Below are positions 28,076 to 37,662 of a stretch of DNA of 37,662 nt, piece after piece. The translations under genes were made by a program, and so were the position numbers. Origin of the DNA: a virus; IMG/VR virus record IMGVR_UViG_3300010299_000001, positions 1 through 37,662 of that record; one strand, written 5' to 3'. Position 1 is the first letter of the stretch, and each line of letters starts with the position of its first letter. The notes under the pieces are model-generated. The model was not told where the DNA came from. It did no database searches and was given only the letters and a program-made list of their open reading frames with translations.

Positions 28076-28384
28076 TTATCGCCTGGCCATTGAGAGGAAG
28101 AACTCCAGCTGACGCTGACGCTCCTGGTCCTCCATCGCCTTCCGCTCATCCTCGCGCGTACGCATGTCTGCGAGCTGGTTGGCCACACCGGCAATGGCGG
28201 GGCCCACGTAGGGGATTGCACTGCCGGCAGCACCACCGAGCCGAAGAAGGTCTGCCTGTCCCTGCCGAGCGTTCTGCCCACCACGGTTGCGCTCGTCCTC
28301 CTCACGCATTGCGCGGAGACGGTCTGCAAGTCGCGGCTGTGAGCGGCTCTGGTATGGATTAGCGTATGGTCCCTGGCCCTGCAT
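28076..28384 (-). CDS. Unknown small protein between terminase and portal, 102 aa
   Basis: This 102-residue protein has an Arg/Gln/Asn-rich first half (PYQSRSQPRLADRLRAMREE), a Gly/Ala-rich hydrophobic middle (GGAAGSAIPYVGPAIAGVA), and a charged helix with two Arg/Glu stretches at the end (DERKAMEDQERQRQLE). The middle resembles a short membrane-active or packing segment as found in ejection proteins. ATG 28384 is selected because it overlaps the terminase stop (TGATG) behind GGGGGG. Function unknown. Confidence 0.55.
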   Translation of the reverse strand: MQGQGPYANPYQSRSQPRLADRLRAMREEDERNRGGQNARQGQADLLRLGGAAGSAIPYVGPAIAGVANQLADMRTREDERKAMEDQERQRQLEFFLSMARR

Positions 28385-29919
28385 CAGCCCCCCCTGTGGT
28401 ACCCCCCCATCCGTCGTTTCTGGCGCCAATACCTTTCAAGCTGGGCCATCATGTCAACGCGACCGGGGACGGGTCCCGCTCTTTTACGCGGGTCGTTTGC
28501 GTTAGCCATCCAAGTATAGCAAAACCCTAGCGCCATACAGAGGTCTTTAGGTCCCTCAAAGTCCCCGTTGTCCACAAAAAGGTTATCGCACTCGTACGCC
28601 AACTCGGCTGGACCGTGTACTTCGCCCGCCTCTACGTAGCGCTTGACATACAGCAGGCCGTCGTAGCGTGAGGTCTTGGTGGTCTGGAGCTCCGAAATGC
28701 GTACGCCAAGGTTGATGCACTGCTGCACCGTTCCGACGCCTAGGCCATTCTTTTCGACCACACAAATCGGAACCCTGTTGTCGTATTTGCCTAGCTCGTT
28801 CTTTTCAGAGTAAGTGTATAGTTCTTGGGCCGTTTTGCAGACCCCGGCGAGGTCGTCCATCTTGCACTCGGAGTCCACGAATGAGGCCATGATTTCGCGG
28901 CTGAGTTGGTCCACCACCACCACGGCAGAGCGGTCCCTGCCGAGCCCAGCGGCCGTGTCAACGCCGATCACATAGTAGCCTGACCCCTCGTGGCACCGCC
29001 GGTAGATGTCCAAGTAGAGGCGCTCTGTGGCGTCCTCAACGTAGTGCCGGTCAATGGGGTCCTGCACGGGCGGGGTCTTCCGAATCCAGCGGCCGGCGGC
29101 GTACATCCATGAGTGTTCGGGAAGCTGTGGGTACTCACGAAAGCAGCGGATGATGTCACCGCCACACCGGTTCTTGAGCAGCCAAGCCCAGTAGGTCATG
29201 GACTCGATATCCTGAAAGCCGGCCTCCTCCAGCTCGTGTCGGAGCTCGTCGTCCAGCACCTGCTTGTCGTACGGCATCCGGTATTCGTGGTGGTCCTCAA
29301 AGGAGAAGAACCGCTTGGCGAAGTCGTTGTCCTTCTGCCAAAGCTCCTTGGCTAGGGGGTCGTCTACGCCCATGGTGGTTTCGATGATGACCCGGCCGCC
29401 CAGAACAAGGGCCTGCATGAGCGACGTATAGGAAGCGTTGGGGTCCCGCCAAAAGGGGAGCTCGGTGAAGTGGAACCGGTGGAAGGTCATGGAGGCACCG
29501 GCCCGCCTGCCGCCTGCCGTCATGCCGATGATTTCGGAGCCGTTCGGAAAGGTCAGCGTGTTGGTGCCGCGCTGGTAGCGAACCTCTAGGCCGAGCTGGA
29601 GGGCGAAGTCGTAGCAGACCCGCACACGCTCCTGGGCCTTCGTGTCGGTGTCCACGACGATGCCGCACCTGACCCGCTGGTGGTTGGAGTCGTTGGCCGA
29701 GCACCAGAGCACGTTATCCAAGCAGACGGCGGTAGAGGCGCCAATCTGACGCACCTTAAGCACGTAGAGCTGGCGGTACTTCCAGAGGTCCTGGAACAGC
29801 TGGACCTGCTCATCGTTCACGGGCCAATCTGTCAGCAGGCCTGATTCGTGGTTGATGATGCGAAGTTGTTTGGCGATTGCGAGGGTGTGCTCGGGCGGAA
29901 CCCCGATGAAGCCTGTCAT
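28384..29919 (-). CDS. Terminase, large subunit
   Basis: This 511-residue protein is the packaging motor. It has a Walker A-like loop at YVLKVRQIGAST near residue 52 (with R instead of the usual K/T pattern), motif GSEIIGMTAGGRRAGAS near residue 127, and a Walker B-like FHRFHFTELPFW near residue 146. The nuclease part starts at GYYVIGVDTAAGLGRDRSAV near residue 310, with later acidic positions in CVVEKNGLGVG and PGRVDMMAQLERY. ATP-driven DNA translocation and genome cutting are the known roles. It overlaps the small subunit gene by ATGA and contains GCTCCGAAA at 28689 and TTTCGGAGC at 29532. Confidence 0.9.
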   Translation of the reverse strand: MTGFIGVPPEHTLAIAKQLRIINHESGLLTDWPVNDEQVQLFQDLWKYRQLYVLKVRQIGASTAVCLDNVLWCSANDSNHQRVRCGIVVDTDTKAQERVRVCYDFALQLGLEVRYQRGTNTLTFPNGSEIIGMTAGGRRAGASMTFHRFHFTELPFWRDPNASYTSLMQALVLGGRVIIETTMGVDDPLAKELWQKDNDFAKRFFSFEDHHEYRMPYDKQVLDDELRHELEEAGFQDIESMTYWAWLLKNRCGGDIIRCFREYPQLPEHSWMYAAGRWIRKTPPVQDPIDRHYVEDATERLYLDIYRRCHEGSGYYVIGVDTAAGLGRDRSAVVVVDQLSREIMASFVDSECKMDDLAGVCKTAQELYTYSEKNELGKYDNRVPICVVEKNGLGVGTVQQCINLGVRISELQTTKTSRYDGLLYVKRYVEAGEVHGPAELAYECDNLFVDNGDFEGPKDLCMALGFCYTWMANANDPRKRAGPVPGRVDMMAQLERYWRQKRRMGGYHRGG

Positions 29920-30498: not shown

Positions 30499-31035
30499 TC
30501 AAGGCGGGTCGGGATGATTTTCGAAGACGTACTGCTTGGCCTCGTTTTGGAGCTGAGTAGCGAACCTGCCCATGAGGAAGTGCTGGCCGGTCTCGTTCAT
30601 CGCTAGCCACTCCCAGCGCCCCAGACCCATCGCCCGGTCCTCGTACAGGTGCCATAGCTCGTGCGCCAGAGCCGATGACCACCATGGCTTATCCTTGTCG
30701 TGGCCGTGAAGCTCAATCCGGTTCTCACCGTAGTAGTAGTGACCCGAGTAGCCGGGGACGTTGCCGGTGAGCGAAACCTCGGTGCCGGCGGCAAGGGGCG
30801 TCATCTCTTGCAGGCCGTGGCTGACCAGCGAAACGTCGTACCCGTCCAGTAGTAGGTCCGAGCGTCCCCAGAGCTCGCCGCGCCTTCCCTCAAGCTGCCA
30901 CTTCTCCGAGCCGCAAGCCGTAAAGATGAGGCCGCGCCCGGTCACCACCTCGACGCAGTCGTCTGCCCTGTGGTTTAGCGTCTGACCGCAGCCGAGCGTG
31001 AGCACTAGGATGAGAACCGATGCGAGTCGTACCAT
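30499..31035 (-). CDS. Lipoprotein with HExxH metallopeptidase-like motif, 178 aa
   Basis: This 178-residue protein begins VRLASVLILVLTLGCGQTLN, a lipoprotein signal with lipobox LTLGC near residue 12-16. The central part has a beta domain and then SSALAHELWHLYEDRAMG, an HExxH zinc-peptidase motif (HELWH) near residue 125; a downstream Glu (EWLAMNETGQ) could be the third ligand. This is like small M78/gluzincin-type or toxin-like metalloenzymes anchored to the membrane. In phages it could cleave a surface protein or act in superinfection exclusion. It is the last gene before the leftward terminator. Confidence 0.62.
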   Translation of the reverse strand: MVRLASVLILVLTLGCGQTLNHRADDCVEVVTGRGLIFTACGSEKWQLEGRRGELWGRSDLLLDGYDVSLVSHGLQEMTPLAAGTEVSLTGNVPGYSGHYYYGENRIELHGHDKDKPWWSSALAHELWHLYEDRAMGLGRWEWLAMNETGQHFLMGRFATQLQNEAKQYVFENHPDPP

Positions 31036-31694
31036 TCCTCAACTTTATCAAGGTCTGCTGGATGGTCGACAGGAACGGTGGACTGCTTCACCTCGCACAT
31101 CCTTACATCGCGGCCTGCATCCACCAGGCGCATGATTTCGATGTCGAGCTTTTCCTCCAGCGTACGGCGAGGCTTTCCCGCTCCGAAATAGCGGTAGAGC
31201 CCGGAGCCAAAGGAATACATGCCCACCTGTTTGAGCCCTGTCCCCAGGTCGCGCCTGTCTGCATACTGGAGGGTGTTCCGCTCCGAAACGACCATCTGCA
31301 CCTCCATGGTTGAGGAGCGCGTGTAGCAGCAGGACCATGGGTAGCTGGACTCGTAGATGAATGAATGGATGGACTCGGGGGTGATGGTTGGCTCGTCGCC
31401 CTGGACGTTCACCACGAGCCGCGCCGGGTGGGCCTTCGCAACCTCTGCCACCCTGTCCGTGCCGGTGGCGCAGTTCTCGGGCGTCATCATGGCCAGTCCT
31501 CCGTAGCCCTCCACCCAATCGTAAATGCGGCGGTCGTCTGTGGCAACGATCACATTTTCGCGCCCCACAGCATCGGCGCAGTTTGCCCACACCACCTCCA
31601 CCATGGGGACACCGCAGATAGGCTGTAGCGGCTTGCCAGGGAAGCGTGAGGAGCCCCAGCGGGCAGGGATTACGACCAACACGTCACGGCTCAT
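31005..31694 (-). CDS. CMP-Kdo synthetase-like cytidylyltransferase
   Basis: This 229-residue protein is like KdsB (about 245 residues), which makes CMP-Kdo from CTP and Kdo. Marks are VVIPARWGSSRFPGKPLQPI near residue 5 (nucleotide loop), IVATDDRRI near residue 48, ENCATGTDRVAEVA near residue 70, VVNVQGDEPTI near residue 90 with the Asp for magnesium, and the late PVDHPADLDKVE. KdsB-like and NeuA-like enzymes share this fold, so Kdo, a related eight-carbon sugar or another acid sugar could be the substrate. ATG 31694 has AGAGG upstream and overlaps the aldolase-like gene by 11 bases. Confidence 0.82.
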   Translation of the reverse strand: MSRDVLVVIPARWGSSRFPGKPLQPICGVPMVEVVWANCADAVGRENVIVATDDRRIYDWVEGYGGLAMMTPENCATGTDRVAEVAKAHPARLVVNVQGDEPTITPESIHSFIYESSYPWSCCYTRSSTMEVQMVVSERNTLQYADRRDLGTGLKQVGMYSFGSGLYRYFGAGKPRRTLEEKLDIEIMRLVDAGRDVRMCEVKQSTVPVDHPADLDKVEEWYDSHRFSS

Positions 31695-32535
31695 ATCGCC
31701 TCTTTCCGTGGAGCTCTCGGAGTTCGTCCAGCTCAGCGCCATTCTGTACGTACGTGGGGTGGATGCCGTGGCGTGCGGCGTAGGCGTAGAGCGGCGAGGG
31801 GCCCCACTTGAGCTCTGGGCGCATGGCCTCGATGTCGGCGCACAGGTCCACGAGTGACTGCGGGATGTCTCTTACTAGAAGCTCCGTGCGAGCGTTTCCG
31901 GCACCGCGACCCAGTCCGCACACGGACGAGTCAACGCAGGCGGCCCATGAGTTAAGAGCACGCTCGGCCTCTCCGGTGGCTTGCCCGAGGTTGTTGTGTG
32001 GGTGGTAGCCGAACTGGATATCGGAAAGCCAAATCTCCCCCTCTCCCGCGTCTGACTCTCCAAGCGAGTCCGCAAGCACAATCATGTCAGGCCTTCCCCA
32101 GCGCCTTGGAATGCTTGGCGGAGGGAAATACTGTGTCGCCTGCATGATGTTGAGCCAGCACTCGTAGCCCATCTCTTTGACCCGAGAGATGTAAGGCCCA
32201 ACACGGTCCAGGTCTTCAATGTGGGTGGCCAGCCGTACGATATCAACGGGCGAGTCTTTGGCTTGGGCTAGGTGTGTGCTCAGGTCCGACACATTTCGGA
32301 GCCGAGCCGTATTGAGCATGATGGCGATTCGCTTGGATTTCGGAACCTCAAGCGTCTCAATCCACTCGTCTGACAGGTCGGCGTACTTGCCTCCGGTCTC
32401 ACCTCTGAAACCGAGCTCCAGGATGTCCACGTCGTCGCAGCTCTCCATCGCCTCCAGATACTTGACCACGAAGTCGTAGGGCCAGTCCCAGTTTGTGTAG
32501 TAGCCACCGTCCCTGAGCGTGCAATCAAGAATCAT
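31684..32535 (-). CDS. DRE-TIM aldolase/lyase-like enzyme, 283 aa
   Basis: This 283-residue protein opens with MILDCTLRDGGYYTNWDWP, the signature of the HMGL-like/DRE-TIM family (Asp and Arg for catalysis and metal). A later GYHPHNNLGQATGEAERALN near residue 175 gives the metal-binding H-x-H, and the GLGRGAGNARTELL segment near residue 212 is the standard C-terminal loop. Relatives include 4-hydroxy-2-oxovalerate aldolase, and relatives occur in surface-sugar gene clusters. It is directly upstream of the CMP-sugar synthetase-like gene, with an 11-base overlap, so the two likely act in one pathway. The substrate cannot be read from sequence. Confidence 0.8.
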   Translation of the reverse strand: MILDCTLRDGGYYTNWDWPYDFVVKYLEAMESCDDVDILELGFRGETGGKYADLSDEWIETLEVPKSKRIAIMLNTARLRNVSDLSTHLAQAKDSPVDIVRLATHIEDLDRVGPYISRVKEMGYECWLNIMQATQYFPPPSIPRRWGRPDMIVLADSLGESDAGEGEIWLSDIQFGYHPHNNLGQATGEAERALNSWAACVDSSVCGLGRGAGNARTELLVRDIPQSLVDLCADIEAMRPELKWGPSPLYAYAARHGIHPTYVQNGAELDELRELHGKRRYEP

Positions 32536-33154
32536 AGTCGCCCTCCCCGTCGGCCTTGGCGTATGGGTTGTCCTGCTCGGGCAGGCAATGGCTCGCATGG
32601 TGATAGCCATCGGTCCAAGCCTCCGCCCTCACCTGCCGAAGCGCCTCGGCTCCGTGGGTTGTGGTGCCGAGCAGATCCTTGGCCAGATACGCAGCGAAGG
32701 CAGAAGAGCAGCATCGGTCGCACTCCTCGCCGGCCTCCCACGGGCCACACGTCGCCGGGTCCTCGCACTCGACGTGCTCAAGCATCGGCAGACACATCAC
32801 CACGACCTGCGTCAGCCGCTCGATAAGCGCCGCCTGCTCGCGGATGGTCTCGACGTACTCTCGAGCAAGGCGCCTCGTGTCCTTCATCAGCAGCGGCTGC
32901 GGCGACAGGTCGACGAGGATGCCCTGCACGTCGTCCATGCACTTCATGAGGAGGTCGTGTGACGCCCGCGTCTCCTCGTGGGCCTTGCGCTCGGCGTCGA
33001 GCTCGGCGCGGAGTTCGTCGATGGTGGCCAGCAAGCCTGCCGCCATCTCGTATTCGCCCGGTGCATCAAAGGCAACGTTCCAATCCGCCTCTTCCGCAGT
33101 CGACACAAGACCCCTCAACCCAAGCAACTGTTCTTCTGTAAAAGGATTAGCCAT
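32525..33154 (-). CDS. Unknown coiled-coil protein with Cys cluster, 209 aa
   Basis: This 209-residue protein has an N-terminal ANPFTEEQLLGLRGL, a long coiled coil (ATIDELRAELDAERKAHEET), and a Cys-rich centre (CEDPATCGPWEAGEECDRCC) that could bind metal. The end is Gly/Asp/His-rich. A strong AGGAGG precedes ATG 33154. It opens the leftward sugar-gene unit and its stop overlaps the aldolase-like gene by 11 bases. Similar short proteins in phages pair coiled coils with TTTC-rich leaders, but I cannot name a family. Role unknown. Confidence 0.6.
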   Translation of the reverse strand: MANPFTEEQLLGLRGLVSTAEEADWNVAFDAPGEYEMAAGLLATIDELRAELDAERKAHEETRASHDLLMKCMDDVQGILVDLSPQPLLMKDTRRLAREYVETIREQAALIERLTQVVVMCLPMLEHVECEDPATCGPWEAGEECDRCCSSAFAAYLAKDLLGTTTHGAEALRQVRAEAWTDGYHHASHCLPEQDNPYAKADGEGDYDS

Positions 33155-33670
33155 CACTACCTCCTGCCCCTAAAATGCCACCTCACGTTTCGGAGCGCAA
33201 GCGAAAATCCCCTCCCCCATCCCCCACCCCGCTTTGCTCATGCCGACGCCAGAGACGCCTGCTCCCAAACCGCTTGTAGTTGCGAGCCGCTCTGTCGCTT
33301 CGCTCCCGCTATGTTTCGTGGGCTGGGAAAGTAGATATCACATGGTCGCCTCTCGGGGCCTCCTTCGGACGTCCCCTCGGTTCCCTTTGGCTCGGCGGCG
33401 CTCGCGTCGGTCACACGGCTATTCGCTCCGAAACCGTTCCGAAATGCGAGTGAAACCGGGGACTTGCGAAAACATTTCGGAGTGCAGCCAGCCCGGAAAA
33501 AAGCTCTAGCCTATATTGCGTTTTGTGACTCCCCCCGCAGTACAAGCCGCGCCATATTGGGAGAGGGCCTGGGAGAGGGTTTGTGATGGGATGTGATTTG
33601 TGGTGATAATCCCTTCCGCTCGCTTTGCTCGCGCAAGCTACTCCCCCCCCTACCCCCCGAATCGTGCTCT

Positions 33671-33749
33671 TGCACCTATCGTGCCAGGAGGGTGGCATAG
33701 TTTTTGCAGGTAGCACACACCGTGCCAATCCGATGGCACACCCTTTGCA
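33671..33749. promoter_or_regulatory. Two dyad elements TGCA-N6-GTGCCA-N6-TGGCAY-N6-TGCA
   Basis: Two 38-bp copies, starting 41 bases apart (33671-33708 and 33712-33749), each have four blocks in the same order and spacing: TGCA (AGCA in the second), GTGCCA, TGGCAY, TGCA, with six bases between blocks. Each half, read outward, is TGGCAY-N5-nTGCW, which matches the sigma-54 -24/-12 pattern (GG and GC at the proper spacing): TGGCATAGTTTTTGCA and TGGCACACCCTTTGCA rightward, TGGCACGATAGGTGCA and TGGCACGGTGTGTGCT leftward. Either paired divergent sigma-54-like promoters or large operators for a dimeric regulator. Confidence 0.6.
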
Positions 33750-33799
33750 TATACACAAACCGTGCCACCCCTTTCGGAGCCACCCCGTTCCGAAATCCT

Positions 33800-33836
33800 G
33801 GGCACACTTCTTGCTCCCACTGCAAGCGTGGTGCCA
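33800..33836. promoter_or_regulatory. Two convergent copies of the TGGCAC-type element
   Basis: The right-facing copy is GGGCACACTTCTTGCT (33800-33815) and the left-facing copy TGGCACCACGCTTGCA (33821-33836 on the minus strand). They point at each other with five bases between. Both match the -24/-12 pattern. The tail-to-tail arrangement is the opposite of the two dyads to the left. Degenerate leftward copies lie at 33752 and 33869. Confidence 0.5.
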
Positions 33837-34247
33837 TGTGCGAATCGCGTACACATGTACGAATCGCGGCCACAAACCGTGCCAGCCGTTTCGGAGCCGA
33901 GTCCAGTGCGTGCAAACCCAACAAGGCTTAGAAGGGGCTTTTCGTTTGTGTTTCCAGGTACTTACAGGATCGTGTAGGCCACGGTGAAAAAAAGGTGGTT
34001 TATCCTTCACTAGATTTGGGTTTCGGAAAGCGCAACGAAAACAGAGGGTTAGGTCCTTTATGAGGGGGAGAGGGGTGAGGGTAGTGTGGGAAGTGACGGC
34101 AAAAGCTAGTGTTATATATATTCTTTTCCTTTCTCCAAAAGAAACCTAAGGGGTCTCAGTCGTCATCCATCACCTCTTGCCTAAACCGTGCCTATCCGAT
34201 TCCGAAACGTTTTTGGGGGCTTACGTCTCGTCTGGGGACTCCGCTCC

Positions 34248-34283
34248 GCAGTGAAGGCAAGGGGTTTCCGATACCTTCACTGC
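34248..34283. repeat. Perfect 10-bp inverted repeat
   Basis: GCAGTGAAGG at 34248-34257 and CCTTCACTGC at 34274-34283 form a perfect stem with a 16-base loop. There is no T run on either side, so it is not a standard terminator. It could form an RNA structure or be an operator. It lies downstream of the leftward gene at 34403-34720. Confidence 0.75.
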
Positions 34284-34402
34284 CCCCACGTGTGCCCTCA
34301 CTTGCCCGGAGGAGCTCCCCTCCCCAGCTGTGTTCGCTCGTCTCAGGCGTTGGCGTGAGCAAAAACAACCAGAGGGGGGCCGCTCCGAAATGGGCGGATG
34401 CG

Positions 34403-34720
34403 TCAACTGTTCGACATCGGGGTCAGAGGGATGCCGGAAAGCGGACTGTGGCAGAGAACAACCTCGTCCCCGTTTTCTTCAAGGATGTCATAGACGACAA
34501 AACCGTGGTCGCCGAAGTCCTTGACGCGAATCATGTAGAGGTTCTCAACGGCTCGGCAGATTGCTGCATCTAGGCACCCAAAGCCCCACATTTTGTCAAC
34601 CTCCCAGAGCAGGCTGTTGAGTTCTTCGCCATGAAAGCCGAGAATGCGAAGAATAAGGCGCACCTGTGAGAATGAGCTGTTAAGGGTGTCGGTGGTGGCG
34701 TTGCGGTAGGAGCGCTGCAT
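34403..34720 (-). CDS. Unknown small protein, 105 aa
   Basis: This 105-residue protein has a helical start (TLNSSFSQVRLILRILGFHG), a middle with DKMWGFGCLDAAICRAVENL, and a beta-rich acidic end (HGFVVYDILEENGDEVVLCHS). No family is recognised. Its leader, GGACAGACACAATGCAGCGC, is identical over 20 bases to that of the opposite-strand gene at 35740, including the start codon. It lies 35 bases downstream of the palindrome at 34755-34786, which contains a TGGCAC-type element, so it may be directly controlled by it. Confidence 0.6.
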   Translation of the reverse strand: MQRSYRNATTDTLNSSFSQVRLILRILGFHGEELNSLLWEVDKMWGFGCLDAAICRAVENLYMIRVKDFGDHGFVVYDILEENGDEVVLCHSPLSGIPLTPMSNS

Positions 34721-34754
34721 TGTGTCTGTCCTTGGTTTGGGTTGGGGTTCACTC

Positions 34755-34786
34755 TTATACGTTGCAGCATCGGTGCCAACGTATAA
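34755..34786 (-). promoter_or_regulatory. Palindromic operator-like site with a TGGCAC-N5-CTGCA element
   Basis: TTATACGTTG (34755-34764) and CAACGTATAA (34777-34786) form a perfect 10-bp inverted repeat with 12 bases between. The minus strand inside it reads TGGCACCGATGCTGCA (34763-34778), matching the repeated -24/-12-like element. If it is a promoter, transcription would begin near 34752, about 30 bases before the ATG at 34720. The palindrome would let a regulator cover the same site. Confidence 0.6.
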
Positions 34787-34809
34787 CCCGCCCCCATCTG
34801 CATCCTAGG

Positions 34810-34885
34810 CCGTTTCGGAGCCGCACACCGTTAGAAACCACGACATTTCCGTCCGCATCTATGACACCGATGCCCTGGTTTTAAT
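34810..34885. repeat. 76-bp repeat, copy 1
   Basis: This aligns without gaps to 35450-35525 (640 bases apart), with perfect runs such as CCGTTAGAAACCACGACAT and GCCCTGGTTTT. On the minus strand both copies read as a peptide NQGxxVI....VVVSNGVRLRNG. In this copy the peptide follows, in frame, the TAA of the gene at 34881-35165. The copy includes TTTCGGAGC at 34813; the other copy has a changed site (TTTCGCAGA). Confidence 0.8.
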
Positions 34886-35165
34886 CGGAGTCGCCGGCCT
34901 GCCTGCACGCCTTTAGCTTGTCCCTTAGGCGGACAATCTCATTGTAGGCATTTGCCCCTGGATGGCGCATCCCAGCGGCGCTAACGGCCGTCCAGCGGCC
35001 ATCATACTGCTCACACCCATCCGATACCGAGAACAAGATGTCACACCAGTCAACGCCGCTTGGCCCAGCTGACATCTGATAAGAAACCTCAGCGTGCCAT
35101 CCTGCGTCCAGCTGCTCAGACGCTGCGTATCCGACACCGTTTACGATTTCCTCGAAGTACTTCAC
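34881..35165 (-). CDS. Unknown small protein, 94 aa
   Basis: This 94-residue protein is acidic with a beta start (GYAASEQLDAGWHAEVSYQM), WCDILFSVSDGCEQYDGRW in the middle and a helical end (AYNEIVRLRDKLKACRQAGD). Two Cys sit in the middle. GTG 35165 overlaps the stop of the gene upstream (GTGA), so the two are coupled. After its TAA the frame stays open and reads the NQG...VVVSNGVRLRNG repeat peptide. Function unknown. Confidence 0.55.
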   Translation of the reverse strand: MKYFEEIVNGVGYAASEQLDAGWHAEVSYQMSAGPSGVDWCDILFSVSDGCEQYDGRWTAVSAAGMRHPGANAYNEIVRLRDKLKACRQAGDSD

Positions 35166-35389
35166 TGGTAGAACCCCATTTCATCGGCTGCCGCCTCAAC
35201 AAGCTTCCGCCCATCGTCACCATTGGCAATACGATAGGCATCGTCAAGAGCCATGCCGCCCTTGATTGTGGCAGGGTGCGAGGCGGGTAGTCCAAGGCGG
35301 GCCGCGCGGCATCCATCGTAAATCATGGCACCTAGGGCGCCACCAAGAATGTCGGCGAGAAGATAGGCGTTTTTGTAGTTGTTGCTCAT
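35162..35389 (-). CDS. Unknown small protein, 75 aa
   Basis: This 75-residue protein begins SNNYKNAYLLADILGGALGAMIYDGC, a Gly/Ala-rich partly hydrophobic helix. Then comes LGLPASHPATIKGGMALDDAYRI and a short acidic end. The ATG at 35389 overlaps the stop of the frame upstream (ATGA). A TGGCAC-type element ends about two bases before a possible transcript start (see 35402-35417). No family recognised. Confidence 0.55.
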   Translation of the reverse strand: MSNNYKNAYLLADILGGALGAMIYDGCRAARLGLPASHPATIKGGMALDDAYRIANGDDGRKLVEAAADEMGFYQ

Positions 35390-35577
35390 GCCCGTACACA
35401 ATGCAGCCGACGTGCCAAAGTGCAAATGAGCTTTACTTTGCCGGCGGAGCCGTTTCGCAGACGCACGCCGTTAGAAACCACGACATCAGGCGTAAAAACT
35501 ATGACACAAGCGCCCTGGTTTTGATTTTGCCCTAACCGCCTGCAAACAATGGACTTTCGCTCCGAAACGCCTCTCAA
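35386..35577 (-). CDS. Possible small protein carrying repeat peptide, 63 aa
   Basis: This frame starts with TTG and ends ATGA-coupled to the gene at 35162-35389. It reads RGVSERKSIVCRRLGQNQ, then the repeat peptide NQGACVIVFTPDVVVSNGVRLRNG, and a basic, Cys-containing end. The conserved peptide and the coupled stop support coding. The weak start and the overlap with the 76-bp repeat argue against. An alternative overlapping minus-strand frame (ATG 35620 to 35486) exists. Confidence 0.4.
   Translation of the reverse strand: MRGVSERKSIVCRRLGQNQNQGACVIVFTPDVVVSNGVRLRNGSAGKVKLICTLARRLHCVRA
35402..35417 (-). promoter_or_regulatory. TGGCAC-N5-CTGCA element
   Basis: The minus strand reads TGGCACGTCGGCTGCA, a further copy of the repeated 16-bp element, with the same CTGCA right half as the copies at 34763 and 35680. 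It lies just upstream of ATG 35389, so a transcript from it would be nearly leaderless, or it may be an operator. Confidence 0.5.
35450..35525. repeat. 76-bp repeat, copy 2
   Basis: This is the second copy of the 34810-34885 element, gap-free in alignment. It lies inside the minus-strand frame at 35386-35577. A third partial copy of its right end (TGACAC...GCCCTAGTTTTG) is at 35591-35611. Confidence 0.8.
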
Positions 35578-35679
35578 CCCCCCCGAGCTCTGACACTGGC
35601 GCCCTAGTTTTGCGGGACATGTTTCGCACCGAATCCGCTGAGATGGGGGCTATCGGCTCCGAAACGCGAATCCGAAAGT

Positions 35680-35695
35680 TGGCACTGGGCCTGCA
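35680..35695 (+). promoter_or_regulatory. TGGCAC-N5-CTGCA element, candidate promoter of the rightward block
   Basis: The plus strand reads TGGCACTGGGCCTGCA, fitting the -24/-12-like pattern. A transcript would begin near 35706, about 34 bases before the ATG at 35740. An alternative sigma-70-like reading of the same place is TTGGCA, 16 bases, TATGTT. Either way it is the best promoter candidate for the rightward block. Confidence 0.5.
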
Positions 35696-35739: not shown

Positions 35740-35880
35740 ATGCAGCGCCGCTCAACCATCCCCTTCCCCAAGTCCAAGCCCTGCGTTCCGTCGTGGTTCT
35801 ACATTTTTCAGTCCGAAACCGAGGGATGGGGCGTCTGCAAGGAAACCATCGCGCTCGCCGCCTACTCTCTCTCTCGCTAA
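35740..35880 (+). CDS. Small protein, 46 aa; first rightward gene
   Basis: This short frame encodes MQRRSTIPFPKSKPCVPSWF, then a YIFQSETEGWGVCKETI segment and a helical end. The basic start with Trp and Phe and two Cys is typical of small early phage proteins, but no family is recognised. Its leader, GGACAGACACAATGCAGCGC, is shared with the opposite-strand gene at 34720. The start follows the candidate promoter at 35680 by a normal distance. Confidence 0.5.
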   Translation: MQRRSTIPFPKSKPCVPSWFYIFQSETEGWGVCKETIALAAYSLSR

Positions 35881-35912: not shown

Positions 35913-36242
35913 ATGACCAACCCCTACCCCAACGCTGAGACCCGCGAGTTCATGCTTACCATCCAGAACGACGAGGGCATCTACCGCAACATTATGGATA
36001 ACCTTGGCGAGCAAGTGTCCGACGATGGCGACGAGGCCGACGCCGACTCCATTCTCCACAACCTAGCGCATGGCCTTCTCGCCTCGATTCTTGAGGACCT
36101 TTGCAGCGCAGAGTTCAACACCGCTTTCGGCGAGCGCATCGTAGACCTCTACATCCAAGCGGTTGACCTTGACGAAGCCGCCGAGTACTACCGCGCGGAC
36201 GTTGAGCAGATGATTGAGGAAATGCAGGCCGGTTGCGACTGA
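35913..36242 (+). CDS. Unknown acidic protein, 109 aa
   Basis: This 109-residue protein starts MTNPYPNAETREFMLTIQNDE, followed by IYRNIMDNLGEQVSDDGDEAD and a long helix with NLAHGLLASILEDLCSAEFN. It is acidic and mostly helical, without a catalytic motif. The ATG is preceded by AACGAAAGGCAAGACA, close to the leaders of the two cassette genes that follow. An in-frame ATG at 35619 exists but would overlap the gene at 35740. Similar short acidic proteins are found in phages of unknown role. Confidence 0.62.
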   Translation: MTNPYPNAETREFMLTIQNDEGIYRNIMDNLGEQVSDDGDEADADSILHNLAHGLLASILEDLCSAEFNTAFGERIVDLYIQAVDLDEAAEYYRADVEQMIEEMQAGCD

Positions 36243-36341
36243 CCGGCGACCACATACGGCCCAGATGCCCCTACCGCCCCGGCATTAGCGGGGCCTAGGG
36301 CGTTAGAAACCCCAACCAAGAGGCACAAAGTGACCAAGAGC
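36243..36341 (+). repeat. Intercistronic repeat cassette, copy 1
   Basis: About 95 bases nearly identical to 36672-36771. Shared parts are ACCACATA, GATGCCCCTA, a hairpin GCCCCG...CGGGGC (6-bp stem), CCTAGGGCGTTAGAAACCCC and AACCAA with an AGGCACAAA ribosome site before the start codon. The loop differs between copies (GCATTAG or GCTTCTAG), while the stem is kept, so the hairpin is conserved. Could be a processing or terminator-like element. Confidence 0.85.
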
Positions 36342-36671: not shown

Positions 36672-36771
36672 GACCGGTCACCACATAAGGCCTAGATGCC
36701 CCTATCGCCCCGGCTTCTAGCGGGGCCTAGGGCGTTAGAAACCCCAACCAAAGGCACAAAATGACCATTCT
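36672..36771 (+). repeat. Intercistronic repeat cassette, copy 2
   Basis: Second copy of the element at 36243-36341, including the hairpin, the GGGCGTTAGAAACCCC block and the leader with AAAGGCACAAA before ATG 36761. The two copies frame the gene at 36330-36671 and share the GTTAGAAACC block with the 76-bp repeat. Confidence 0.85.
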
Positions 36772-37282: not shown

Positions 37283-37662
37283 ACACCGCCACATCATCGA
37301 CACGTTCCGAAGCGCCACACCATCCGAGCGCACACGAGGTGAGCTCTGGTACCACACGGCACGACTCTCGGCCCTGGAGCTAACGGCGCTATCAGGCCAC
37401 GGTCCCCACGAGCCATGGAGCATCGACCAAGCCGCCTGTGTCATCGCCGCCCTCAGCCCGCAAAACAAGTGGAGCCGCAACCTAGAAGACGCACAGGCCG
37501 TAGCCCGCTGGTATGCCTCCCCCGAGCCCGTTTCGGAGCGAACACCCCCAGCAACCGCCACCTACGATTGGTGCCGCGACAGGGCCCTACAGGCAGCCAC
37601 AGATTCAAGAGACCCATGGGCAGCACTGGGCGACGGACGGAAAACCAAGGACTTCGCGCGAC
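37275..37662 (+). CDS. N-terminal part of the junction-spanning protein (ends at 392)
   Basis: First 129 codons of the 218-residue protein that continues at base 124 after circular closure. It starts MSKHRHIIDTFRSATPSERT, with WYHTARLSALELTALSG next, and carries the ALSPQNKWSRN element near residue 60. The ATG lies inside the end of the preceding small gene. TTTCGGAGC at 37531 is read V-S-E and lies directly before the terminal repeat. Confidence 0.75.
   Translation, partial: MSKHRHIIDTFRSATPSERTRGELWYHTARLSALELTALSGHGPHEPWSIDQAACVIAALSPQNKWSRNLEDAQAVARWYASPEPVSERTPPATATYDWCRDRALQAATDSRDPWAALGDGRKTKDFAR
37540..37662. repeat. Terminal direct repeat, right copy
   Basis: Identical to bases 1-123. 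Joining the two removes one copy and gives a 37,539-bp circle. Confidence 0.95.

Follow-up and report, generated by a model that had tools for sequence, protein, structure and literature searches.

A paired array of sigma-54-type sites

The window (the whole stretch of 37,662 nucleotides of viral DNA analyzed here) contains a non-coding control region of 1.25 kb (33155..34402), which lies between a leftward late operon and a region of small genes and holds a paired array of short sites. No gene was called between these coordinates when codon score and RBS were used as criteria. The leftward operon begins with a gene at 32525..33154 (minus strand) and continues to the terminase, portal, and capsid genes; the terminase large subunit gene (28384..29919, minus strand) is a common neighbor of such arrays.

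An earlier note on this DNA reported nine copies of a sigma-54-like element, TGGCAY-N5-nTGCW, that keep GG and GC at the sigma-54 spacing and are confined to the control region. Scanning the window with the equivalent pattern TGGCAY-N6-TGCW, we found eight exact matches in 37,662 bases, all within 33671-35695 (33671-, 33693+, 33712-, 33734+, 33821-, 34763-, 35402-, and 35680+). The ninth copy, 33800+, reads GGGCAC and has one mismatch. Every reported coordinate and strand is correct, GG and GC are kept in all eight matches and the variant, and the other spacings between TGGCAY and TGCW (0-5 and 7-15) gave 0 or 1 match each. With two mismatches permitted, the window yielded 114 matches versus 105.5 in shuffles, which is chance level; the signal therefore lies in the exact matches and their position. 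We also found a tenth site that the note had not listed, 33752- (TGGCACGGTTTGTGTA, with GT at -12), opposite 33734+ at 18 bp.

The sites are laid out as three face-to-face pairs, a lone outer site, a weak relic, and three gene-proximal singles. We scored them with a sigma-54 matrix built from 29 published Salmonella promoters (PMC3844500), which themselves score 16.0-23.2. The outermost site, TGGCACGATAGGTGCA (33671..33686, minus strand; score 18.0), is directed at the late operon. Pair 1 joins TGGCATAGTTTTTGCA (33693..33708, plus; 15.8, just under the lowest Salmonella promoter) to TGGCACGGTGTGTGCT (33712..33727, minus; 12.5) at a spacing of 19, and pair 2 joins TGGCACACCCTTTGCA (33734..33749, plus; 19.9, the top score of the window) to the additional site (33752..33767, minus; 16.4) at a spacing of 18. 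Pair 3 consists of the variant GGGCACACTTCTTGCT (33800..33815, plus; 8.2) and TGGCACCACGCTTGCA (33821..33836, minus; 10.6) at a spacing of 21. The relic is a degenerate copy, TGGCACGGTTTGTGGC (33869..33884, minus; 8.2), that belongs to direct-repeat family D2, and two 19-bp direct repeats, CATGTRCGAATCGCGNNCA (D10; 33835..33872), adjoin the array as a possible protein site.

The single sites stand close to small genes. TGGCACCGATGCTGCA (34763..34778, minus; 9.6) ends 42 bp before the start, at 34720, of a 105-amino-acid gene (34403..34720, minus) that has the leader GGACAGACACA-ATGCAGCGC in common with the gene at 35740 (I1). TGGCACGTCGGCTGCA (35402..35417, minus; 18.5) precedes a 75-amino-acid gene (35162..35389, minus), with its predicted +1 only ~2 nt ahead of the ATG at 35389. 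TGGCACTGGGCCTGCA (35680..35695, plus; 10.0) lies ahead of the rightward genes, the first of which encodes 46 amino acids (35740..35880, plus) behind a predicted leader of ~34 nt. All three singles have a common element 66-108 bp upstream, which is enhancer distance. For 34763-, the element is CTATGACACCGATGCCCTGGTTTTAAT, at 81-107 bp upstream within a module of repeats D3 and D6 (34809..34885); a second copy of the module (D3, D6; 35449..35525) stands at the same distance from 35402-, with the element at 82-108 bp; and a third copy of the element, CTCTGACACTGGCGCCCTAGTTTTGCG (D3; 35588..35614), lies 66-92 bp upstream of 35680+. The string CCCTRGTTTT occurs in the window only at these three upstream elements.

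The window control region thus holds a genuine cluster of sigma-54-type sites, and the sites and their statistics are established. Six window sites score 12.5 or higher in the matrix scan that the earlier note had proposed, every one in the control region, versus 0.6 expected. Its statement that several copies match the consensus almost fully holds for 33734+, 35402-, 33671-, and 33752-, and nearly for 33693+, but not for 33712-, 33821-, 35680+, 34763-, and 33800+ (8.2-12.5); in all, 4 of 11 sites score above the lowest real promoter (16.0), and the rest, apart from 33693+, lie at 8.2-12.5. At positions outside the search letters, base preferences resemble those of the 29 Salmonella promoters (r = 0.77 over 8 positions); position 7, for example, is G.70/A.26 in the phage sites versus.66/.34 in sigma-54 promoters.

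Some observations in the window count against the explanation that we favor below, in which these are sites for the sigma-54 holoenzyme. Three sites, including the gene-proximal singles 34763- and 35680+, score only 9.6-10.6, and 35402- would yield a nearly leaderless message.

Distribution among phages and position relative to genes

At least 195 stretches of viral DNA (a lower bound) contain face-to-face pairs with members 17-21 bp apart, versus 4 stretches in 257 Gb of bacterial genomes, and the same search with the element spacing one base shorter returned 0. This pairing is specific to phages. In IMG/VR, we counted 729 clustered sites versus 8-13 per control in 1.2 Mb, and a scan blind to arrangement gave 347 sites versus 3-8 in controls. 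Among unrelated phages, one cluster per phage is the usual number; most records have ~2-20 sites, largely at a single control locus, and in jumbo and large-terminase contigs the sites spread across several kilobases. Of the clustered sites, 96% are not within a predicted gene. In most loci that hold the terminase large subunit gene, the array is upstream of it, mostly within 0.3-2.4 kb; the terminase proteins diverge among carriers, but the motif does not.

Only one bacterial-genome contig (L143) has a multi-site array, and the other three genome matches are single pairs. This contig comes from a Verrucomicrobiia bin with rpoN but gives no host link, because no phage family is a clear match for its genes. 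Searches for close relatives of the window phage, by its terminase patterns in IMG/VR and at the DNA level in a phage collection, found none, and its portal gave only weak matches. Caulobacter phage GB2A and two Manatee Spring relatives, which have terminase or portal similarity, lack the array. BLAST of the consensus pair against phages returned no match, the query being too short for sensitivity.

The motif is also present in cultured phages (PAK_P1, Ab1, and JG004 of the genus Pakpunavirus; Kassivere, UAVern, and SYP). TGGCAY-N6-TGCW matches number 8-14 in Pakpunavirus genomes and 6-8 in other Pseudomonas carriers, versus 0-2 in the comparison phages T4, T7, lambda, PB1, and phiKZ. The pair is conserved across phages of P. 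aeruginosa, P. putida, and P. plecoglossicida, with its letters fixed and the inner five bases free. Pseudomonas species, the hosts of the cultured carriers, possess rpoN. The papers on Pakpunavirus and its relatives that we consulted do not mention such sites.

Singles and pairs differ in their position relative to genes. Across the array phages, the gene next to a leading single site is co-directional in 126 of 155 cases, and within 200 nt of a co-directional start such sites stand in front 55 times versus 6 times behind. This promoter-like geometry is established and supports the view that single sites behave like promoters. Paired sites mostly stand 200-1,000 bp away from genes and favor neither direction, and their role is therefore different from, or additional to, that of a plain promoter. 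A C/T asymmetry of the pairs, considered as a direction signal toward the terminase, showed no preference (24/53). Arrays also contain phased tandem and back-to-back copies, with changes in copy number.

Candidate readers of the sites

No gene is common to more than 7 of 17 near-complete array phages, even with profile iteration, which makes a conserved host factor the likeliest reader. The RpoN DNA-binding domain (PF04552) was found in 0 of 19 records. The earlier note had suggested looking for an enhancer-binding protein, and the corresponding AAA+ activator domain (PF00158) had no match over the cut-off in 48 records. Both negative results weigh against the explanation favored below. Sequence comparison nevertheless gives good support to recognition by sigma-54 RNA polymerase, since base preferences agree, the motif recurs without shared genes, and Pseudomonas phages keep copies. 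The note's sigma-54 promoter reading is thus partly supported, for recognition and for the use of singles as promoters; nine plain promoters is too simple an idea, because five of the nine copies and 33752- are members of face-to-face pairs. A single pair is not expected to accommodate two holoenzymes, which counts against the promoter reading, as do the symmetry of paired sites and their distance from genes.

On balance, the cluster probably consists of sigma-54 (RpoN) holoenzyme sites, with singles as enhancer-dependent promoters and pairs as two-way docking sites or switches. The host holoenzyme would bind the cluster (RpoN in the host of the window phage is an assumption). Transcription would start at the singles 34763-, 35402-, and 35680+, acting as enhancer-dependent promoters of small phage genes, with the repeated upstream element as the likely site of a host activator. 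The mid-region pairs would be high-density docking sites that hold the holoenzyme as a closed complex in either direction. One pair is probably not occupied both ways at once, which would let the pairs serve as a promoter in both directions or as a switch between the leftward late operon and the rightward operon. More tentatively, the pairs may represent a type of control element peculiar to viruses and employed repeatedly by phages that are unrelated, which would capture the sigma-54 polymerase of the host, as a trap or a two-way switch, independently of any shared phage protein. Our literature search found no earlier report of sigma-54-type arrays or pairs in phages, nor of such a host takeover.

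It is unlikely, in our judgment, that the sites are instead operators of another DNA-binding protein, of phage or host, with nearly the same motif, such that pairs bind a dimer and singles overlap promoters under the control of that protein. Pairs are a typical operator form, arrays that change in copy number would suit operators, and a small, fast-evolving regulator could evade detection. In PAK_P3, the sites are separated from the gene by an annotated putative promoter (51015-51042) and may therefore act upstream of another promoter, which also counts against the holoenzyme reading. However, the absence of a common gene in the 17 array phages argues against such operators and disfavors the phage regulator that the earlier note had offered as its alternative. 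The gap between pair members ranges over 5 bp (17-21), which is nearly half a helical turn and unlike a rigid dimer; the members are less alike than chance (agreement at position 6 of 0.34 versus 0.51); and the sites agree with sigma-54 promoters at unselected positions. One host regulator, SrpA, was rejected as the binder, as its motif, NTATC-N(0,9)-GATAN, differs from TGGCAY-N6-TGCW.

Improbable, too, is a sponge, in which the sites sequester the host holoenzyme so that sigma-54 genes, such as those for pili, flagella, or stress responses, fall silent, transcription being incidental. Dense pairs distant from genes would fit it, as would sites that multiply with phage DNA, including those in the Ab1 terminal repeats. 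Singles, however, are placed and directed like promoters, overlapping pairs give no extra capacity, and most records have few sites at largely one control locus. We find it very doubtful that the array serves packaging or replication, as a pac/cos-like site or an origin to which a terminase small subunit or an initiator binds. Its proximity to the terminase large subunit gene and the sites in Pakpunavirus terminal repeats point that way, but in Ab1 the terminase (24.6 kb) is distant from both site loci (sites at 0-1, 79.7-79.9, and 91.8-92.7 kb), and the 79.7-kb locus is neither at the genome end nor by the terminase. Sites across several kilobases in jumbo and large-terminase contigs, a motif that stays constant as terminase proteins diverge, and a search of array phages that found no shared small terminase or initiator weigh against it as well. 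Chance or structured RNA/DNA hairpins are scarcely credible: inverted repeats can form hairpins and a terminator-like match overlaps one site, but the shifted-spacing control gave 0, and hairpin and Rfam explanations are ruled out by spacers of pair members that are less complementary than chance and by the lack of any Rfam family.

Comparison with known systems

The prevailing view has lytic phages relying mostly on host promoters of the sigma-70 type or on factors of their own. If the holoenzyme reading is true, viruses would have a second, activator-dependent route into host transcription, one present in many phages that are unrelated to each other, well-studied ones of P. aeruginosa among them. 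Infection would then be predicted to depend on signals of nitrogen, stress, or motility in the host. The face-to-face pair has enough specificity to be used as a marker when sequence data are searched for such phages, and because cultured Pseudomonas carriers exist, the idea is directly testable in the laboratory.

The T7 A1-A3 and T4 early promoters are host-type early promoters of lytic phages, of the sigma-70 type. As is proposed for the array, they group several promoters for host polymerase within a single control region of a virulent phage; the array differs in its sigma-54-type motif and its pairing. Lambda OL/OR are phage operator clusters and likewise comprise a number of inverted-repeat sites within a control region that is divergent, whereas for the array no repressor was found, the gap is variable, and phages without kinship carry the same motif. 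Pakpunavirus and its relatives share with the window phage the identical site type and the conserved face-to-face pair, but have larger genomes and no evident DNA relation to it. In P. aeruginosa phage K5, the host regulator SrpA acts on a palindrome (PMC5945682), as a host factor may on the array, through a motif unrelated to ours. The array also resembles the sigma-54 (RpoN) -24/-12 promoters of bacteria such as E. coli and Salmonella (PMC4591121, PMC3844500). Bacterial systems and phage sites share the 16-bp TGGCAY-R-N4-TTGCW, with equal spacing and base preferences, and singles ahead of genes; the window's upstream element, a candidate activator site, lies at enhancer distance. Unlike bacterial sigma-54 systems, array phages encode no activator that we found, and their sites form dense arrays in which copies stand in phased tandem, back to back, or as face-to-face pairs at 17-21 bp, an arrangement that bacterial genomes almost lack.

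Sites and architecture of the control region

The window contains eight exact matches to the sigma-54-like element TGGCAY-N6-TGCW, all within 33671-35695 and none elsewhere, and a ninth copy in this region is a GGGCAC variant; each of the other spacings from 0 to 15 gives at most one match. This confirms, and the results below greatly extend, the observation of an earlier note that such sites keep the sigma-54 spacing and are confined to the control region. We scanned the window with a sigma-54 matrix built from 29 Salmonella sites (PMC3844500, Table 3). Sites 33734+, 35402-, and 33671- (start coordinate and strand) score in the range of real promoters, as does 33752-, which the matrix added; the near-full consensus matches described earlier are borne out for the first three, and the rest of that list is weaker.

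Counting 33752-, six of the sites are arranged as three face-to-face pairs (33693/33712, 33734/33752, and 33800/33821; spacing of 19, 18, and 21 bp) mid-way in a 1.25-kb gene-free stretch, and 33671- faces outward, toward the late operon. The single sites 34763-, 35680+, and 35402- each lie just before a small gene (34403-34720 for the first and 35740-35880 for the second), with predicted leaders of about 32, 34, and 2 nt, respectively. The leader GGACAGACACA-ATGCAGCGC is common to genes 34403-34720 and 35740-35880. An upstream module is shared by 34763- and 35402- (58/80 bases) at equal distance from both sites; its element TNTGACAC..GCCCTRGTTTT has a third copy ahead of 35680+, and CCCTRGTTTT occurs in the window only at these three places. 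Relative to the -24 element of the singles, the shared element is located 66-108 bp upstream, a usual enhancer distance at sigma-54 promoters. Near-identical intergenic blocks (TAGCGGGGCCTAGGGCGTTAGAAACCCCAACCAA and flanks) at 36241-36319 and 36672-36751 precede genes 36330 and 36761, and their GTTAGAAACC recurs in both upstream modules of the singles.

The window, with a G+C of 0.60, is the genome of a phage in which the control region separates leftward genes at 11-33 kb (terminase, portal, and major head protein among them) from rightward genes at 0-11 kb (including SSB, Rad52-like, YqaJ, and primase/helicase). An exact 123-bp direct repeat (1-123 and 37540-37662) reflects a terminal repeat or a circular assembly. 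The late operon carries CTP_transf_3 (cytidylyltransferase-like) and HMGL-like aldolase genes at 31005-32535, possibly surface-sugar genes. The 9-mer TTTCGGAGC occurs at 41 places (about 0.3 expected by base count), both genic and intergenic and mostly on the plus strand from 10 to 33 kb; it was not found in the array contigs L004-L021.

Distribution and spacing among viruses

The face-to-face form is known from at least 195 viral stretches (at least 120 in an IMG/VR scan; a stricter form gave at least 77 further loci). Bacterial and archaeal genomes totaling 257 Gb yielded four matches to the loose form and none to the strict form, and an inner spacing one base shorter has no matches in the viral collection. 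The back-to-back form was found in 18 IMG/VR contigs, nearly all with clusters. Across 137 loci we counted 729 sites, versus 8-13 per control (control spacings and reversed motif), and an arrangement-blind single-site scan returned 347 sites versus 3-8 for controls; about half of its loci have at least two sites inside 400 bp, mostly in tandem. Among loci with at least three sites in a cluster, G+C spans 30-63%. Most records, even a 354-kb contig, have one main site locus, which frequently lies 0.3-2.4 kb upstream of terminase. Six sites, including two face-to-face pairs at 18 bp, occur on the 4.3-kb contig JAAZXX010000390.1, which belongs to a Verrucomicrobiia bin with rpoN and whose genes are perhaps of phage origin.

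Face-to-face spacing is 17-21 bp, with almost none outside that range; back-to-back spacing is 21-26 or 31-37 (none at 27-30), and tandem spacing is 25-29 or at least 35 (none at 30-34). Within one group of related arrays, site letters are constant, spacers vary, units are gained or lost, and distances shift in 10-bp jumps, about one helical turn.

Members of 249 face-to-face pairs (loci L004-L139 and L198-L384) are less alike than chance: 165 mix TGGCAC with TGGCAT, far above chance, position 6 agrees at 0.34 versus 0.51 expected, and inner bases agree at 0.29 versus 0.35. This dissimilarity argues against both a hairpin and a symmetric operator. The mixing might serve to prevent perfect palindromes or to make one side strong and the other weak; we found no bias in the direction of the TGGCAC member toward terminase.

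Sites in cultured Pseudomonas phages

One carrier contig corresponds to the Pakpunavirus Ab02/Ab1, a phage of Pseudomonas aeruginosa. In Ab1, eight different sites are strong (matrix scores of 15.6-22.0); they lie in the terminal repeat and at 79.7-79.9 kb, and the latter locus includes a face-to-face pair spaced 18 bp. This pair and the following approximately 65 bp form a conserved non-coding piece still alignable to P. putida and P. plecoglossicida phages. Across these phages GG, GC, and spacing of the pair are constant while the inner five bases vary; Kassivere has one mismatch in the second member, and the terminal-repeat sites are retained at 75-77% identity. The adjacent stretch of about 65 bp (CTCCNTGTTTGTCTCCGGTGCTCGGCCTCC..TGCGTTGCCCGC; L385:19935-20010, NC_019918.1 79934-80009), which is conserved in phages ranging from those of P. 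aeruginosa to those of P. putida, had no Rfam match in the two loci scanned (L390 and L391). The motif matches 0-2 times in T4, T7, lambda, PB1, and phiKZ.

Candidate reader and role of the sites

The earlier note had proposed either host RpoN or a phage regulator as the reader. Bases outside the search letters match sigma-54 promoter preferences (r = 0.77 over eight positions), and T precedes TGG in 65% of sites, consistent with the former. Against a phage regulator, no gene is common to more than 7 of 17 near-complete carriers, and the window phage has almost no genes in common with other carriers, in both cases also with profile iteration. A search of 19 records revealed no RpoN domain, and one of 48 records revealed no sigma-54 activator above the cut-off. 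The simplest common reader would be a conserved host factor. To our knowledge, sigma-54 polymerase is the only reader of such a motif, and, judging from sequence, the host sigma-54 polymerase most likely reads these sites.

Among 194 sites that are leading, unpaired, and non-coding, 126/155 have a next gene in the same direction as the site; within 200 nt, 55 gene starts are located in front of a site versus 6 behind. Paired sites are symmetric in direction and mostly 200-1,000 bp from starts. This placement suggests that singles are promoter-like and that pairs are not, or not only; singles would serve as enhancer-dependent promoters. In PAK_P3, an annotated putative promoter lies downstream of two sites, so some sites might act on a neighboring promoter. 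The face-to-face pair is a phage-specific arrangement that might act as a switch, two-way promoter, or trap.

Searches of the open-licence literature on sigma-54 with phage genomes, promoters, or genes turned up no description of such arrays, which does not in itself prove novelty. A sigma-54-like protein is reportedly encoded by the T7-like phage Q19 (PMC7693777); such a phage-encoded factor differs from the site arrays seen here.
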